Part shown: piece after piece, positions 746 through 50,017 of the stretch
How the letters are laid out: each line of letters starts with the position of its first letter
Position numbering within the stretch: position 1 is the first letter of the stretch
Made by a program: the position numbers and the translations under genes
Source of the DNA: Ilumatobacteraceae bacterium
GTDB taxonomy: Bacteria; Actinomycetota; Acidimicrobiia; Acidimicrobiales; Ilumatobacteraceae
Reading direction: 5' to 3'
Length of the DNA stretch: 64,000 bases
Assembly (NCBI GenBank): GCA_033344875.1
Contig: JAWPMO010000001.1
Location: 1,079,595-1,143,594, forward strand
The notes under the pieces: generated by a model
The model's database searches: none
Seen by the model: only the letters and a program-made list of their open reading frames with translations
Told to the model about the DNA's origin: nothing

Positions 746-2228
746 ACCGCTCGACGTCGCCACGACCCGATCGACTGGCGCCGGACTGCGCCGCTGGTTC
801 CTGGGGCCACCACACGTCGATCGGCTGACGGTCACCCACTGCGTCCACGCTGCCGCCGAAGCCTTCTTCACGGTGTCGATGGCCGGATCGATCTTCTTCA
901 GCGTCTCGCCGGATGCAGCGCGGCCTCGCGTGCTGCTGTTCCTCGTCGTGACCCTGGCGCCGTTCCTCGTCATGGCGCCGCTCGTCGGGCCGGTCGTCGA
1001 CCGGATCCGCGGCGGTCTGGCGTCGACGATGGTCGCGACGTTCGGCATCCGTGCCGTGCTCGCACTGCTCCTGGCCGAGAACCTGCGATCGCTGTTCCTG
1101 TTCCCGCTGGTGTTCGGCATCCTCGTGGTCGCCAAGACCTACACGGTCGCCCGGAATGCGCTGGTGCCGTCGCTCGTCGAGGACGAACACGACCTCGTCG
1201 CCGCCAACGCCCGACTGTCACGGACGGCGACGTTCGCCGGCGGGATCGCCGCCGCGCTAGCGGTCGCCTTGTACGCAGGTACGTCGGGCGTCTGGTCGTT
1301 GCGGGTCGCTGCGCTGATCTACGTCGGAGGCGTCGTGGTGGCGTGGCGTGTCCGATCGGTGGCACCACGGCTCGAGCCGGTCGGCCGCGATGCATTCGTC
1401 GAGATGGTCCGGCCGGATGTCTCGGGCGCCGTCTGGGACATGGTGGTGCTCCGCGCCGCGCTCGGGTTCGCGCTGTTCCAGTTCGGCTTCTCGCTGCGCG
1501 CCGAAGGTGAGCCGGCGTGGGTGCTCGGTGCCCTCCTGCTGGCGAACGGCACCGGCGGGTTCGTCGGCACCGTCGTGTCGCCCTGGCTCCGCCGGCACAC
1601 CAACGAGCGATCGATGTTCACGGTCGCCCTGGTGGGGTCTGCGTTGGTCGCGCTCGCGGCCGGCGTCGTGTTCAGCCGCATCACGCTGACCATCGCGATC
1701 TTCGTGCTCGGCATGTCGGTGAGCGTCGGGCGACGCGCCCTCGACGCGACCATTCAGCGCCAGGCGCCGCACGCGAGGAGCGGGCAGGTGTACGCCGGCC
1801 TCGAGACCCGGCTGGAGCTCGCCTGGGTCAGCGCGGCCTGTCTCGCCGTGGCGCTCCGGGTCGCCACGTGGATCGGGATGCTGGCGCTCGCGATCTTCCT
1901 GGCGCTGGTCGCGATCGTCCACCTCCGTCGGCGGGGTGGGCTGCTGTCGGTGCGGCCGGTCGGGTCGATGCCGCTCGCCGACCGGCTGCTCCTGCGCGCC
2001 GAGACGCTCGCCGACCACCACTACTACGACGAGGCGATCGTGGTGGCGCTCGCGGCGCTCGAGGAGGGCCTCGGCGACGGTGGCACCGCACCGTTGACCC
2101 GTGCCGAGCGGTTGGCGCTCGCCGACCCGGCGACGCTCGTCACGGCCGAACGGGCCGCCGACGTCATCGAGACCGTGCGGCATCAGCTCGATGCCACCCC
2201 TCGCCCGGCCACCGACGCCTGCGGGTAG
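735..2228 (+). CDS. MFS transporter with C-terminal cytosolic extension
   Basis: A 497-residue membrane protein from GTG 735, which overlaps the lipoprotein gene by 11 bases. It has about 10-12 hydrophobic segments. After the second segment comes a loop (GPVVDRIRGG) like motif A of the major facilitator superfamily, and the layout resembles the EntS/MFS_3 exporter group. The last ~90 residues, after the final membrane segment, form a charged helical tail rich in Leu, Ala and Glu (DRLLLRAETLADHHYYDEA and onward). A longer upstream start in the same frame is possible, but it would overlap the lipoprotein gene by about 100 bases and lacks signals. The substrate is unknown. Confidence 0.75.
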   Translation: MTSEPLDVATTRSTGAGLRRWFLGPPHVDRLTVTHCVHAAAEAFFTVSMAGSIFFSVSPDAARPRVLLFLVVTLAPFLVMAPLVGPVVDRIRGGLASTMVATFGIRAVLALLLAENLRSLFLFPLVFGILVVAKTYTVARNALVPSLVEDEHDLVAANARLSRTATFAGGIAAALAVALYAGTSGVWSLRVAALIYVGGVVVAWRVRSVAPRLEPVGRDAFVEMVRPDVSGAVWDMVVLRAALGFALFQFGFSLRAEGEPAWVLGALLLANGTGGFVGTVVSPWLRRHTNERSMFTVALVGSALVALAAGVVFSRITLTIAIFVLGMSVSVGRRALDATIQRQAPHARSGQVYAGLETRLELAWVSAACLAVALRVATWIGMLALAIFLALVAIVHLRRRGGLLSVRPVGSMPLADRLLLRAETLADHHYYDEAIVVALAALEEGLGDGGTAPLTRAERLALADPATLVTAERAADVIETVRHQLDATPRPATDACG

Positions 2229-13560: not shown

Positions 13561-15776
13561 TGCGCGTCCTGGTCGTCGGCGGAGGCGGGCGCGAACACGC
13601 CATCGCCTGGGCGTGCGAGCAGCACGGGCACACGGTCACCATGGCGAGCGAACTCGGCGAGGTCACGGCCGCCGACGTGGACCTGGTGATCCCCGGACCC
13701 GAATCCGCACTGGTCGCCGGCATCGCCGACGAGTGCGCGTTCCGCAAGATCCCGTGCTTCGGACCCACGTCGAAGCAGGCACGGATCGAGTCGTCGAAGG
13801 GGTTCAGTCGGCAGCTCGCCGACGGCCTCGGCGTGCCGGGACCGAGCTTCGAACGGTTCGAGGAGAACGACGACCGGGGAGCGATCGCCTGGTGGCGTCA
13901 GTTCGGGCGTCCGGTCGTCGTCAAGCTCGACGGGCTCGCAGCCGGCAAGGGCGTCATCGTGCCGACGACCGCCGAGGAGACCGAGGCCGCGATCCGCAGC
14001 ACCGCACTGCTCGGCCCGTTCGTGCTCGAGGAGCTGTTGACCGGCCCCGAGTGCTCGCTGCTCGCGCTGTGCGACGGGTCCACTGCGGTGGCGCTGCCGA
14101 TCGCCCAGGACCACAAGCGTGTCGGCGAAGGCGACACCGGCCCCAACACGGGCGGCATGGGCGCGTATGCACCGGCGCCGATCCGCGAGCGGGCCGACGA
14201 GCTGCTCGCCACCTTCGTGCAACCGATCCTCGACTACTACGCATCGTCGGGCACGCCGTACGTCGGCGTGCTCTACGCCGGGCTGATGCTGACCGCCGAC
14301 GGCCCTCGCCTGATCGAGTACAACTGCCGGTTCGGTGATCCCGAGACGCAGGCGGTGCTGCCGCTGCTCGAATCCGACCTGGCCGAGCTGCTCCTCGCCT
14401 GCACCGCCGACGGGATCGGCGAGCACGAGCTGACGCTGCGCGACGGCGCGGCGTGCACGGTCGTCGCAGCGGCGCCGGGGTATCCGTCGAGTCCCAACAC
14501 CGGCAGTTCGATCAAGCTCGACGGGTTCTCGACGACCGAGTGGGCGAACCGCTCCACGATCGAGCCCGACGCGATCCTGTTCCCCGCCGGGGTCACCGGC
14601 GGCAAGACCTCGGGTGGCCGGGTCCTCGCCGTGACCGGTGTCGGCGTCGACCTGGCGTCGGCCCGCGCTGCGGCATACCGGGGGATGGACGGTGTGTCGT
14701 TCTCGAACATGCACGTGCGTCGCGACATCGGGTGGCGTGCACCGGGCGCGCTGCTCAGGTCGTACGCCGACACCGGCGTCGACATCGACGAGGGGACGCG
14801 AGCCGTCGAGCGGATGACCGGGGCGGTCGAACGCACCCTCGGTGACGACGTGCTGCGGGGCGTCGGCAGCTTCGGTGGAGTCATGTCGGCCAGGCGGATC
14901 CTCGAGATGACCGATCCGGTCCTCGTCGCATCGGCCGACGGCGTCGGCACCAAGGTCGAGCTCGCTGCCCGGCTGGGCAAGGTCCGCGGCGTCGGTATGG
15001 ACATCGTGAACCACTGCATCGACGACGTGCTCGTGCAGTCGGCGAAGCCCCTGTTCTTCCTCGACTACATCGCCGCCAGCACGCTCGACGCCGATCTCGT
15101 CGCCGACGTGGTGACCGGCATGGCCGAGGCGTGCGAGGCATCCGGATGTGTGCTGCTCGGCGGGGAGACCGCCGAGATGCCCGGCGTGTACACGGCCGGT
15201 TCGTTCGACGTGGCCGGCACGCTGGTGGGCATCGCCGAGCGGGGCGAACTCCTTCCACGCGACGACGTGGCACCCGGCGACGTGCTGATCGGTGTGGCGT
15301 CGAGCGGACCGCACACCAACGGGTTCTCGTTCCTGCGCAAGCTCTTCGACTGGGTCCCGATGGACGCCACCCCGCCAGGCTTCGATCGCACGTTGGGCGA
15401 CGCCCTGCTCGAGCCGCATCGTTCGTACCTGCCGGTGCTCGAACACGCGCTCGCGAGCGGGCGCGTCAAGGCGCTCGCCCACATCACCGGCGGTGGGCTG
15501 CCCGAGAACCTCCCGCGCGTCCTGCCCGATGGCGTCGACGCGGAGATCTCACTCGGTTCGTGGCCGCGTGGGCCGCTGTTCGAGCTGATCGCCGAGTTGG
15601 CGATCGGCGTCGACACGCACGAGTTGCACCGGATGCTCAACATGGGCATCGGCATGGTCGTGGTGTGCTCGCCCGACGACGCCGATGAGGTGCAGGCGAG
15701 CATCGGCGAGGAGACCTGGGTGATCGGTGCGCTGGTCGGCAGCGAGGCCGGGAGTCGAACGGTCCACCTCGTCTGA
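13560..15776 (+). CDS. purDM: Bifunctional GAR synthetase - AIR synthetase (PurD-PurM fusion)
   Basis: A 738-residue fusion. Residues 1-~392 are PurD (GGGGREHA, KLDGLAAGKGVIV, DTGPNTGGMGAYAPAP, EYNCRFGDPETQ, ending RRDIGWRA). Residues ~396-738 are PurM (SYADTGVDIDEGTRAVERM, SADGVGTKVELA, GGETAEMPG, ASSGPHTNGFS). It would make GAR from phosphoribosylamine and close FGAM to AIR, the order found in fungal Ade5,7 and in the animal trifunctional protein. The PurD N-domain is about 30 residues shorter than E. coli PurD and lacks the GNAGT block. The start shares one base with the purF stop (TGATG). Confidence 0.92.
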   Translation: MRVLVVGGGGREHAIAWACEQHGHTVTMASELGEVTAADVDLVIPGPESALVAGIADECAFRKIPCFGPTSKQARIESSKGFSRQLADGLGVPGPSFERFEENDDRGAIAWWRQFGRPVVVKLDGLAAGKGVIVPTTAEETEAAIRSTALLGPFVLEELLTGPECSLLALCDGSTAVALPIAQDHKRVGEGDTGPNTGGMGAYAPAPIRERADELLATFVQPILDYYASSGTPYVGVLYAGLMLTADGPRLIEYNCRFGDPETQAVLPLLESDLAELLLACTADGIGEHELTLRDGAACTVVAAAPGYPSSPNTGSSIKLDGFSTTEWANRSTIEPDAILFPAGVTGGKTSGGRVLAVTGVGVDLASARAAAYRGMDGVSFSNMHVRRDIGWRAPGALLRSYADTGVDIDEGTRAVERMTGAVERTLGDDVLRGVGSFGGVMSARRILEMTDPVLVASADGVGTKVELAARLGKVRGVGMDIVNHCIDDVLVQSAKPLFFLDYIAASTLDADLVADVVTGMAEACEASGCVLLGGETAEMPGVYTAGSFDVAGTLVGIAERGELLPRDDVAPGDVLIGVASSGPHTNGFSFLRKLFDWVPMDATPPGFDRTLGDALLEPHRSYLPVLEHALASGRVKALAHITGGGLPENLPRVLPDGVDAEISLGSWPRGPLFELIAELAIGVDTHELHRMLNMGIGMVVVCSPDDADEVQASIGEETWVIGALVGSEAGSRTVHLV

Positions 15777-45059: not shown

Positions 45060-45377
45060 TCAGCAGCAATCATCGCCGCCGGCGTAGACCGGCCGGTGGC
45101 GCTCGTCGGACAGCTCGACGACCAGGTTCTTCACGAACCGGCCCTTGGTGGTGATCCGCATGCGCGATGCCATGCCGCTGAGCACCGGCGTGACCAGGAT
45201 CCGGTACTCGGGGTGCCTGACCCGGCTGTACGGCGCGAGGTTCTTGTTCTTCGTGTTGGTGTCGACCGACACCTCTGCGACCTTGCCTCAACCGGTGGGC
45301 TTGATGAAGTCGATCGTCATCGTGCCGCCGCGCTTGTCGAGCAGCGCCTTGGCGTCGTCGGTGATGTCGAGTTCCAT
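45060..45377 (-). CDS. Candidate selenoprotein with in-frame TGA at codon 30 and C-terminal Cys-Cys
   Basis: Reading from ATG 45377 gives MELDITDDAKALLDKRGG-TMTIDFIKPTG, then TGA (45290-45288), then GKVAEVSVDTNTKNKN and onward for 75 more codons, ending GGDDCC. With Sec at position 30 the protein has 105 residues. Evidence: (1) TAGGTT ends exactly 6 bases before the ATG; (2) about 27 of 29 codons before the TGA and nearly all after it end in G or C, like real genes here; (3) a GGUC-loop hairpin follows the TGA at SECIS distance. The layout (short beta-strand domain, Gly-Sec) recalls small HesB-like or CC/Se-motif (seleno)proteins, from memory. A stand-alone 70-residue gene starting at a GTG or ATG after the TGA, or a pseudogene, are the alternatives. 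Confidence 0.7.
45258..45273 (-). promoter_or_regulatory. Putative bacterial SECIS hairpin
   Basis: In the mRNA GGUGUC-GGUC-GACACC folds into a perfect 6-bp stem with a four-base GGUC loop. The stem starts 14 bases, and the loop 20 bases, after the UGA. The E. coli fdhF SECIS also presents GGUC in its apical loop at nearly the same distance (known from the SelB literature, recalled). Confidence 0.6.
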
Positions 45378-45417: not shown

Positions 45418-48000
45418 TCAGTCGACCCGGTCGTAGCGCAGTTCCATGCCGTCGCTCGTGATGAACATCTGGCCGTTCTTGCAGTAGTACGGCCCGCCGA
45501 CGAACTCGGCTCCGAGTGGCGCCTCGTCGGTCGACGAGGTGATGTTCCCTGCCGAGGTGCCGATCGTGACGGCGAGTGTGAACGCCGTGGTCTCGATCGC
45601 CTGGATCTCGGACGCCGTGGCGATGATGTTGCCGGCCTGCGAGCCGGTCATCGTCATCGTGCCGCTGACTCCACCACCCTCGACCAGGATCGCGAAGTCG
45701 GCGAGGGTCGTGGTGAAGGACCTGTCCTCGGCGATGGTGATCTCCCAGTAGCCGCCGGCCGGTGATGCCTGCACCTCGCTGTCGGAGACCAGCTCGGTGA
45801 AGTGCTCGGCGTTGACCCGCCACGTGCCGGTCAGGCAGTACTCGCCGACGACCACCGGCACGGTGACGGACACGGTCGGGTTCGATGCCAACGTCGCCGT
45901 GACCGTGTACGTCCCCGGCTCGCCGCCGGCGGTGTACACCGCCCCGGACGACGGCCCGCTGGTGATGTTGCCCCCGGTGGCCGACCACAGCACGTCGACC
46001 GGCGTGCCGTTCCGGTCGGTCGCCAGGTACTCGAGTTGCTTGCGGACCTCGACGTTGCCATTCTCGGGCGTCACCACGATCTTCGCCAGCTCGAACACGA
46101 CGGTGTCGTTGCGGACATCGGTGGCCCTCGCCCGGAGTCCGGTCGTGCTGGTGGACGCGATCTCCATGACGTACGGATAGTCGTCGGGGTCCGACGGGGT
46201 CACGTACGGGCGGGACCCGGCATCGTTCGTGTCGTCACCGGTGCCGTCACCCCACGCACCGGGGCCGCTGTGCCACACCAGCGTTGTGGTGTCGGCGTGA
46301 TCGAGACGGGTCGTGATCGACACGGTCTCACCGGGCCGCTGCACCGACACCGTCTCCGGCGTCGACACGACCCCGAGCCGTTTCGTCTCGATCGGGATGA
46401 TCACCTCGGTGCTCCGCCCGGAGAACACCTCGGCGTCGGCGCGGAGGCGAAGTCGGCCGGTGCCGAGGTCGGTCGGCCGATAGGCGAGGGTCGCGTCGTC
46501 GGCTTCGACGTTGCCGGACGCCCGCTCGAGCACCACGTACTTCGTGTCGCTGACGTCGACCTCCCACCGCTGTGGGCAGACGCTGTAGTTGCCGGGGGTG
46601 ACCGCGTCGATGTACTTGTTCGTGACGGTGTCTCGCACGTTGCCACCCTCGTCGATGACGTCCTTGCCGAAGTCGTCGGGGACACGATCCTTCAGTCTCC
46701 CGGTCAACTTGTCGCTCAACGCACTGGTGATCGCCTTGGTCGCCGTCGCCACGAGCGCCGATGCGTCCCAACCGGTCGACGCCGCGTGGAGCGTGATCCC
46801 CTGGACGGAACCGTCCTTCTCGAAGTCCTCGTTGAACTCGGTGATGGTGACCCCGGCATCGATGCTCTCGAGGATCGTCGGGTACTGACCGGCGACACTG
46901 CTCTTGTAGGTCTCGAGCAGCGAGAACATGTCGGCGACGACGCCGATGATGGTGCCGTACGCTCCGAGCGGCAGCGAACCGAGCACGGACGCGATCGACT
47001 GGATTCCGGCGAGCACCTGCGCCTCGGCGCCGCCCTCGCGCAAGATCGCGTCGGTGCCCTTGGCCATCGCTTCGATCAGTTGCTCGGCGTTGTCCGCCTC
47101 GACGTTGCCGTCGGTGCAGTTGTCGCCGACCTGCCCGGGCGCGGGCCAGGCCGGAGCGGCGAGCGAGGCGAGTGCCCGCTCGGGGGGTGCCCGGAAACCT
47201 CTCACGCGTGATGGAGCGCCGATCGAGTCGATCAGCCCCAACCCCACCACGAGCGCGTCGAGTCGTTCACGTTCGTCGGCGGTGAGTCCGAGGGCGTCGG
47301 GCAGGCTCTCGAGGTCGTTCTCGGTGCCGTCGTCGACGTACCCGAGCACGAGCCGCAGCGGACGCAGCTCCGGAGCGACCTCGTCGATGGCGGTCTCGCG
47401 GAGCTCGGCGACGCTGCTGCCCGACGTCGCCGCCGAAGCGTCGATCGCTGTGAGGAGCGCCTCGACGGCGTCGTCGAACCCGCCGGCTGCCGCCGGCAGC
47501 GCGGCGACCTGCATCGGGATGACGCCGCTGCGGCTGTCGGCGGCCACGAACCGGAACTCGACGTCGGCGATCTCGCCGGCCGCCTCGACGAACACCGGCA
47601 CGACGCTCGTGAGCCCGTCGTCGTCCAGGTAGAGCGGGAGCGAGACGGTGCCGTCGTCCGTTGCCATCAACAGTTCGAGTTCGCCGAGATCGGCCGACGT
47701 GTCGATGCCGTCGACGTGGAGCACACCGAGTTCGGTGACGGCATCCTCGGCGAACGATGCGTCGGCCAGCCAACCGGACGCGACCGACGCCGTGTCGACC
47801 GGCGTCGTGCCCGCTGTCGTCGTGCCCGCCGCCGTGGTGCTCGGCGTCGACGGTTCCTCTGCCGGCGCCGTGTCGCTCACCGACGCGTCGTCTCCCGAGG
47901 CGCACGCGGCGACGAGCAGCGATGCGGTGGCGATCAGGGCGGTCCCGCTGCGGGTGCGGGCGCGCCGCGCCGCCGCGGGGGTCGATTCCGTGGTGGTCAT
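45418..48000 (-). CDS. Large lipoprotein with Ig-like region, unknown function
   Basis: An 860-residue protein. It has a signal peptide, a lipobox-like LLVAACAS (Cys near residue 33), and a Thr/Ser/Ala linker to residue ~75. The middle (~80-480) is helical and acidic. Residues ~620-760 contain an Ig-like/BIG domain with the typical VDVLWSATGGN and TYTVTATLASNPTVSVTVPVVV strands. The last ~100 residues form a lipocalin-like or CHU-type beta sheet opening CLTGTWRVNAEHF. ATG 48000 is the first start before the signal peptide. It sits between rne and rplU, where Actinobacteria usually have nothing. Confidence 0.7.
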   Translation of the reverse strand: MTTTESTPAAARRARTRSGTALIATASLLVAACASGDDASVSDTAPAEEPSTPSTTAAGTTTAGTTPVDTASVASGWLADASFAEDAVTELGVLHVDGIDTSADLGELELLMATDDGTVSLPLYLDDDGLTSVVPVFVEAAGEIADVEFRFVAADSRSGVIPMQVAALPAAAGGFDDAVEALLTAIDASAATSGSSVAELRETAIDEVAPELRPLRLVLGYVDDGTENDLESLPDALGLTADERERLDALVVGLGLIDSIGAPSRVRGFRAPPERALASLAAPAWPAPGQVGDNCTDGNVEADNAEQLIEAMAKGTDAILREGGAEAQVLAGIQSIASVLGSLPLGAYGTIIGVVADMFSLLETYKSSVAGQYPTILESIDAGVTITEFNEDFEKDGSVQGITLHAASTGWDASALVATATKAITSALSDKLTGRLKDRVPDDFGKDVIDEGGNVRDTVTNKYIDAVTPGNYSVCPQRWEVDVSDTKYVVLERASGNVEADDATLAYRPTDLGTGRLRLRADAEVFSGRSTEVIIPIETKRLGVVSTPETVSVQRPGETVSITTRLDHADTTTLVWHSGPGAWGDGTGDDTNDAGSRPYVTPSDPDDYPYVMEIASTSTTGLRARATDVRNDTVVFELAKIVVTPENGNVEVRKQLEYLATDRNGTPVDVLWSATGGNITSGPSSGAVYTAGGEPGTYTVTATLASNPTVSVTVPVVVGEYCLTGTWRVNAEHFTELVSDSEVQASPAGGYWEITIAEDRSFTTTLADFAILVEGGGVSGTMTMTGSQAGNIIATASEIQAIETTAFTLAVTIGTSAGNITSSTDEAPLGAEFVGGPYYCKNGQMFITSDGMELRYDRVD

Positions 48001-48065
48001 GTGGTCCAGTCCACCACGTCGAGATGCAGGACACGGCCGACGCGGGGCCTCGTCCGACGAATTGA

Positions 48066-48095
48066 GTAGTGCCCGGGCACCGACTGGGTAGTGCC
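48066..48095. promoter_or_regulatory. Direct repeat GTAGTGCC and palindrome upstream of the lipoprotein
   Basis: GTAGTGCC occurs at 48066-48073 and 48088-48095, exactly 22 bp (two helical turns) apart. GTGCCCGGGCAC (48069-48080) is a perfect 12-bp palindrome. This is a good shape for a regulator site. Confidence 0.4.
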
Positions 48096-48124
48096 GTCGG
48101 GTGATCCGGTCGAGCCGGGTCGAG

Positions 48125-50017
48125 CTAGTCGAGCATCCCGTGGTCGATCTTGACCCCCCGGCCCTCACAATCCGGGCACGTCTCGGAGAACTCGGTGAGG
48201 AGGCCTTCGCCGATCCGCTTCCGAGTCATCTCCACCAGGCCGAGCTCGGTGATGTCGAACACCTGGGTCCGCGTCTTGTCGCGAGCGAGCGCCTCGCGGA
48301 ACGCCGTGACGACCTTGGCACGGTTCTCGCGGATCTCCATGTCGATGAAGTCGATCACGATGATGCCGCCGATGTCGCGGAGTCGGAGCTGCTTGGCGAT
48401 CTCCTCGGCCGCCTCCATGTTGTTGTGGAAGACCGTCTCTTCGAGGTTCGACTTGCCGACGTTCTTGCCCGTGTTCACGTCGATCACCGAGAGCGCCTCG
48501 GTGTGCTCGATGATCAGCGATCCGCCCGACGGCAACCAGACCTTGCGGTCGAGCGCTTTGTGCACCTGCTCGTGCACGTGGTGCCGCTCGAACAGCGACA
48601 GCCCTTCGGCTTCGGCGTCGTAGTACTCGATGCGGTCGGCCAGCTCGGGGTTGAACGCCGTGACGTAGTCGCGGACCTCTTCGAAGAGTCGCTGGTCATC
48701 GATCACGACGCCGCGGTAGTCGGGGTTGAACTCCTCGCGGATGACACGAACGGCGAGTTCGGGCTCGCGGTACAGCAGCGTCGGCTTGTTGGCCTTGGCC
48801 GCCTTGCGCTCGATGTCGCTCCACTGCTTGAGCAGCAGGTCCATGTCGGCTTCGAGGTCGGCCTCGGTGGCGTGTTCGGCGGCTGTGCGCACGATCAGAC
48901 CGTGCTGTTCGGGCTTCACCCGGTCGAGGATGTTGCGCAGCCGCTTGCGGGTGTCGTCGGGCAGTCGCTTCGAGATGCCGTACGTCTTGGAGTTCGGGAT
49001 CAACACGACGAAGCGTCCGGGCAGCGACACCTCTTGCGTGAGGCGAGCGCCCTTGGCACCGATCGGGTTCTTGGTCACCTGGCACATGATCATCTGCCGG
49101 GCTTTGAGGATGTCCTCGATGCGGGCGTTCTTGCCCTTCTGCTCGATGTCTTCCTGGTCGTACTGCACGTCGCCGCGGTACAGCACCGCGTTCTTGGGCG
49201 TTGCGATGTCGACGAACGCGGCCTCCATGCCCGGCAGCACGTTCTGCACGCGGCCGAGGTAGATGTTGCCGTGGATCTGACTCACGTCGTCGGCGGGCCG
49301 GCTGACGTAGTGCTCGATCAGGTTGCGGCCTTCCATCACGGCGACCTGGGCCATGCCGGGGCGCACTTGGACGCACATGAAGTAGCGACCGATCGGCTTG
49401 CCGTTGCGCTCGCGCCCGCTGCGCTGCTCGATCAGCTCCTGCTCGGCAGCGGACGGCTTGCCCTTGCCGCCGCGCCCGCCACGGCGACGCTTCTTGCCGT
49501 CGCCGGACTCGCCGCGCTGGTCGCTGCGGTCGGCCTTGGGCTTCGAGTTGCGGCCGCCGTCGTTCGACTGCCCGCCGCCCTTGCCGCCACGCTTGCGGCG
49601 CTTCTGGCCGGTCTTGCCCTCGCCGGACCCACCGTTCGCTCCGTCGCCGTCGTTCGACGTGGCGCGTCCGGGGGGCGGCTTGCTCGGTACGAGCGGTCGA
49701 GTGTCGCCGATCTGCGGTTTGCGCACGAGCGCACGCTCGGCGACAGCGGCGTCTTTGACCTTGCCCTCGCTGATCGGTTCGGGCAGCTCCTCGGGGTCGC
49801 GACCATCGTCGGCGCTCCCGGCGTCGTTCGAGTCACCGGCATTGCGGTTGTCGTCGCCGGACGGTGCGGCCTTCTTGCGGCCCTGGCCGCCGCGTGAGCC
49901 GCGGCGCCGCTTGTTCGACGAGTTACCCGAGGGCGAGCCCCCGGTGGAATCGTCGTTGGAATCGGTCGTCGCCGGAGCCTCGGAGGCATCGCCGGTGTCG
50001 GTCGTGGGTTCGTCCAT
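48125..50017 (-). CDS. rne: Ribonuclease E/G family endoribonuclease
   Basis: A 630-residue enzyme. The first ~200 residues are a disordered, Lys/Arg/Gly/Asp-rich region, unusual in being N-terminal, as in other Actinobacteria. The core has the S1 domain (GNIYLGRVQNVLPGMEAAFVDIATPKNAVLY), the RNase H-like and DNase-like parts (GLIVRTAAEHA; SLIIEHTEALSVIDVNTGKN; IIVIDFIDM with the Mg-binding Asp), and a Zn-link CPDCEGRG. It processes rRNA and turns over mRNA. GAAGGGA is ~9 bases before the ATG. It follows the DUF2344 gene by 15 bases. Confidence 0.93.
   Translation of the reverse strand: MDEPTTDTGDASEAPATTDSNDDSTGGSPSGNSSNKRRRGSRGGQGRKKAAPSGDDNRNAGDSNDAGSADDGRDPEELPEPISEGKVKDAAVAERALVRKPQIGDTRPLVPSKPPPGRATSNDGDGANGGSGEGKTGQKRRKRGGKGGGQSNDGGRNSKPKADRSDQRGESGDGKKRRRGGRGGKGKPSAAEQELIEQRSGRERNGKPIGRYFMCVQVRPGMAQVAVMEGRNLIEHYVSRPADDVSQIHGNIYLGRVQNVLPGMEAAFVDIATPKNAVLYRGDVQYDQEDIEQKGKNARIEDILKARQMIMCQVTKNPIGAKGARLTQEVSLPGRFVVLIPNSKTYGISKRLPDDTRKRLRNILDRVKPEQHGLIVRTAAEHATEADLEADMDLLLKQWSDIERKAAKANKPTLLYREPELAVRVIREEFNPDYRGVVIDDQRLFEEVRDYVTAFNPELADRIEYYDAEAEGLSLFERHHVHEQVHKALDRKVWLPSGGSLIIEHTEALSVIDVNTGKNVGKSNLEETVFHNNMEAAEEIAKQLRLRDIGGIIVIDFIDMEIRENRAKVVTAFREALARDKTRTQVFDITELGLVEMTRKRIGEGLLTEFSETCPDCEGRGVKIDHGMLD

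Follow-up and report, generated by a model that had tools for sequence, protein, structure and literature searches.

A gene between rne/rng and rplU in an Ilumatobacteraceae bacterium very likely encodes a selenoprotein remotely related to A-type carriers

In the window, the 64,000-nt stretch of actinobacterial DNA analysed here, one reading frame of the minus strand runs from an ATG at 45377 to a TGA at 45060 and is interrupted by a single internal TGA. This arrangement raises the question of whether the internal TGA terminates a short protein or is read as selenocysteine (Sec) in a longer one. The original prediction, made from the sequence of the window, had proposed the latter and had placed the protein among small CC/Se-motif or HesB-like families.

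Conservation of the TGA at codon 30

The frame comprises 105 codons (45060-45377, minus strand; stop codon TGA 45062-45060), of which the internal TGA is codon 30 (45290-45288, minus strand), flanked by the codons for Gly29 and Gly31. The GC3 is high on both sides of this codon, 0.93 upstream and 0.97 downstream, as had been described. Standard annotation would split or miss such a gene.

We searched 100 genomes, that of the bacterium itself and those of 99 relatives, in six frames. The whole frame was present in 18 of these genomes (own included), with one TGA each in the main match. Placed on an alignment, this TGA was codon 30 in every one of the 18. Two further loci from a contig search and four genes from further families within the phylum brought the set to 24 TGA genes, the window gene included, and the TGA lies at exactly codon 30 in all 24. 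Identity to the window protein ranges from 85% down to about 38% and is lower still in the four TGA genes from other families. Four more distant homologues, L039, L040, L042 and L043, have an uninterrupted frame in which codon 30 is a Cys codon, TGC or TGT. Homologues with Sec or Cys at this position are what the original prediction had anticipated. Two weak matches with TAG stops, L028 and L045, were set aside. Phylogenetic analysis did not decide between Sec and Cys as the ancestral state. A plasmid search yielded no match, and a SECIS-pattern search of viral contigs found nothing.

Substitution patterns were also informative. The pN/pS ratio was 0.28-0.79 before the TGA and 0.15-0.54 after it, a synonymous excess on both sides. 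These values indicate purifying selection on both halves of the frame.

The protein terminates in Asp-Asp-Cys-Cys, the codons of Cys104 and Cys105 occupying 45063-45068 (minus strand). It had been suggested that Sec30 is paired with this Cys-Cys tail. The tail is present in the window protein and one of its Cys residues is conserved, but the adjacent pair is not: the conserved Cys occurs as CC, CxxC or a single C, depending on the member. According to the alignments, nearly all members have a Cys near the C-terminus, and three relatives have CxxC.

A hairpin that tracks the TGA

Downstream of codon 30 lies a putative bacterial SECIS block, GAGGUGUCGGUCGACACC (45258-45275, minus strand), in which nucleotides 45273-45268 pair with 45263-45258. 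The resulting hairpin comprises a 6-bp stem and a GGUC loop, with ~14 nt between the TGA and the stem. The SECIS of E. coli fdhF likewise shows GGUC in its apical loop.

The block is near-invariant in the 24 TGA genes and disrupted in the four Cys genes. More specifically, GAGGTGTCGGTCGACACC occurs in 24/24 TGA genes and begins 15 nt downstream of the T of the TGA, except in L026, where a one-codon insertion ahead of the hairpin places it 3 nt further on. The only two departures from GAGGTGTCGGTCGACACC both concern the outer pair and are both still paired: G-U in L024 and C-G in place of G-C in L026. Across all TGA genes, 100% of the paired cells are retained. By contrast, just 3-4 of the 6 hairpin pairs are left in the Cys genes (n = 4). 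Moreover, codons 35-40 are frozen, synonymous sites included, the commonest codon having a share of 0.99 versus 0.75 at other conserved residues. Because the hairpin is kept in the TGA genes and broken in the Cys genes, and because these codons are frozen, the hairpin tracks the TGA and not the protein.

Because the hairpin is nearly invariant, it offers little covariation as support, with a single double change. Folded on its own, the single sequence had an unremarkable energy (z of -0.95); the SECIS assignment therefore rests on the comparison. The hairpin core has three occurrences in the bacterium's own genome. On reading the other two sites, we saw no TGA gene comparable to this one.

Selenocysteine machinery

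The original prediction depended on the genome encoding the means to insert Sec. We found selA, selB, selD and the tRNA-Sec gene selC in the genome, the tRNA having the anticodon tca and SelA being encoded close to SelB. The bacterium's selD (L033, C1:4687734-4688651) carries an in-frame TGA (Sec) itself. A GC-rich inverted repeat is located 3' of that TGA.

Among the genomes of the relatives search, SelB was present in 17 of the 18 that bear the gene, the exception being a genome that is 79% complete. However, SelB is common among the relatives (76 of the 100 genomes overall), and its co-occurrence with the gene is thus weak on its own. SelB was also detected in three of the four further TGA genomes and two of the four Cys genomes. 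Elsewhere in the window, at approximately 15012-15290 of the plus strand, a weak SelD-like stretch (21 bits) occurs inside a long open frame; it probably represents another AIR-synthase-type enzyme.

Together, the 24 genes with TGA as codon 30, the four with a Cys codon at this position, the association of the hairpin with the TGA only and the full machinery make it very likely that codon 30 encodes selenocysteine. On the comparative evidence, UGA30 would be read as selenocysteine by SelB and tRNA-Sec via a bacterial SECIS whose stem begins 14 nt past the UGA.

Relationship to the CC/Se-motif family

In NCBIfam, the only relevant match to the window protein was NF041239, the 'CC/Se motif (seleno)protein', a family that a recent review counts among selenoproteins (PMC13188914). 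The match spans residues 1-88 of the window protein and positions 1-89 of the 91-position model, and its 18.8 bits do not reach the cut-off of 40. All 20 members tested matched NF041239, with a best E of 3.1e-6. In addition to this full-length profile match, the window protein has a length similar to that of NF041239 proteins of the Moorella type and shares their C/U-G column, and one of the relatives aligned has the tail Cys. Sec30 aligns with the second Cys of the CC in NF041239-type relatives. By contrast, the first Cys is replaced by Gly29: the adjacent Cys-Cys or Cys-Sec motif is absent from the window protein, which has Gly-Sec-Gly there.

The genomic settings also differ. Whereas the window gene is in an rne-rplU locus, the strict CC-motif members of NF041239 that we found, L046-L050, immediately follow an acr3 arsenite efflux gene in five of five cases. 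In L048 (about 1490-1761, minus strand), the stop and start codons of the two genes overlap as ATGA. Such adjacency suggests that the function of the CC/Se family is related to arsenic and gives a hint of metalloids as a ligand of the Sec30 site; the window gene itself lies in no comparable context.

A second family, TIGR01911, resembles the window protein in being HesB-like and selenocysteine-containing (PMC13188914, PMC1794560). Its motif is UxGP, however, versus U-G-K-V in the window protein, and none of the 20 members tested matched it.

Remote homology to A-type carriers

We then compared the family with a profile of 31 IscA-type proteins of the same order. This profile-profile comparison gave a Prob of 86.8% and a score of 36.4, and it aligned Sec30 with the PGGC cysteine that is the first ligand in these carriers. 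For the close family alone, the Prob was 92% and the score 40.9. In control comparisons, 100 column-shuffled IscA profiles scored at most 17.1 and unrelated ORFs or families at most 21. The alignment covers 73-79 columns, with the C-terminal CxC outside. The likeness to the A-type Fe-S carriers IscA, SufA and HesB (PF01521) consists of a Prob of 87-92% and the position of Sec30. The differences are that neither the window protein nor its relatives matched Pfam, PF01521 included, and that the window protein does not have the C-terminal CxC of these carriers. A sequence search of the PDB found no relative, and an AlphaFold model built from only four sequences had a pLDDT of 34. The profile data point to a remote homology to A-type carriers, which is a claim of homology and not of fold.

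Both families named at the outset were thereby recovered, NF041239 below its cut-off and IscA/HesB at the level of profiles. The window protein represents a new subfamily that none of the libraries used captures at its curated cut-offs, and we found no dedicated paper on it in the literature searched. It adds a selenoprotein subfamily in the Acidimicrobiia and related actinobacteria, with a clean Sec/Cys contrast and a near-invariant SECIS. A dedicated profile could be modelled on it, sparing the gene from being split in annotation. The subfamily further connects the HesB/IscA superfamily with the obscure CC/Se family, whose function thereby becomes testable.

Role of Sec30 and alternative readings

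We are confident, short of certainty, in the reading as a whole: a Sec30 selenoprotein with a SECIS, divergent from NF041239 and remotely related to IscA/HesB, in which Sec30 and the tail Cys contribute to a metal or redox site. According to the profiles, Sec30 would occupy the position of the first Fe-S ligand Cys of A-type carriers and of the second Cys of the NF041239 CC. We infer that Sec30 and the conserved C-terminal Cys most likely form one metal, Fe-S or metalloid site, or else a redox-active Se-S pair that may operate through a selenylsulfide cycle. In the most specific version, which we consider unlikely, the protein would be a Sec-ligated A-type carrier in which a selenolate takes the place of the first Fe-S ligand and which delivers Fe-S clusters or binds a metalloid. 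If true, the rne-rplU-rpmA-obg locus of actinobacteria would encode an A-type carrier with a Sec ligand.

A serious but not favoured possibility is that Sec30 is purely redox-active, of the thiol-disulfide or peroxidase-like type, and has the tail Cys as its resolving partner, without a bound metal. The conservation of a single tail Cys is consistent with such chemistry, as are the redox enzymes encoded near some relatives, namely an FMN reductase beside L041, and an Rv2466c-like mycothiol-dependent nitroreductase and an amine oxidoreductase near L030. Most uncharacterised selenoproteins are, moreover, thought to be redox proteins (PMC13188914). Nevertheless, the protein has no UxxC or CxxU motif, its sole fold link is to Fe-S carriers, and the CC relatives occur beside arsenite efflux genes.

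A selenoprotein with Sec30 is strongly preferred to a pair of independent short ORFs, or a pseudogene, in which the TGA would be a genuine stop or have arisen by nonsense mutation. From a single sequence such an arrangement is formally possible, and a 70-aa ORF with a GTG start follows the TGA. However, the same TGA recurs in 24 genes and is replaced by Cys in four, both halves of the frame are under purifying selection, and the hairpin is frozen only where the TGA is present, which makes this reading highly improbable. Remoter still is a TGA reassigned, for example to Trp, or subject to leaky readthrough, for which we found no support: genes here end in TGA, the window gene included, homologues have Cys and not Trp at codon 30, and the Sec machinery is complete.

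Locus and start region

The selenoprotein gene sits between rne/rng and rplU-rpmA-obg. The next gene downstream on the same strand is rplU, encoding L21 (44704-45015, minus strand; TIGR00061), which adjoins the gene in its own locus and in nine relatives; in these loci, rplU-rpmA is 3' of the gene. The Rne/Rng ribonuclease is encoded upstream (48125-50017, minus strand; TIGR00757). Its gene is 5' of the selenoprotein gene in nine relatives and is the direct neighbour in several. Since neighbours differ in more distant relatives, no function follows from this context. Between rne/rng and the selenoprotein gene of the window is a 916-codon lipoprotein-like ORF (45418-48168, minus strand) without a family match; it was not found beside the selenoprotein gene in relatives.

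A -10-like box, TAGGTT (45389-45384, minus strand), is separated from the ATG by exactly 6 nt, in agreement with the promoter-like element reported originally. The pattern TANNNT occurs at exactly the same spot, 12-7 nt 5' of the start codon, in 9 of the 24 TGA genes; in several of the remaining genes, a Shine-Dalgarno-like sequence takes its place. The placement of the TANNNT box 6 nt before the start suggests that the gene is transcribed without a leader.
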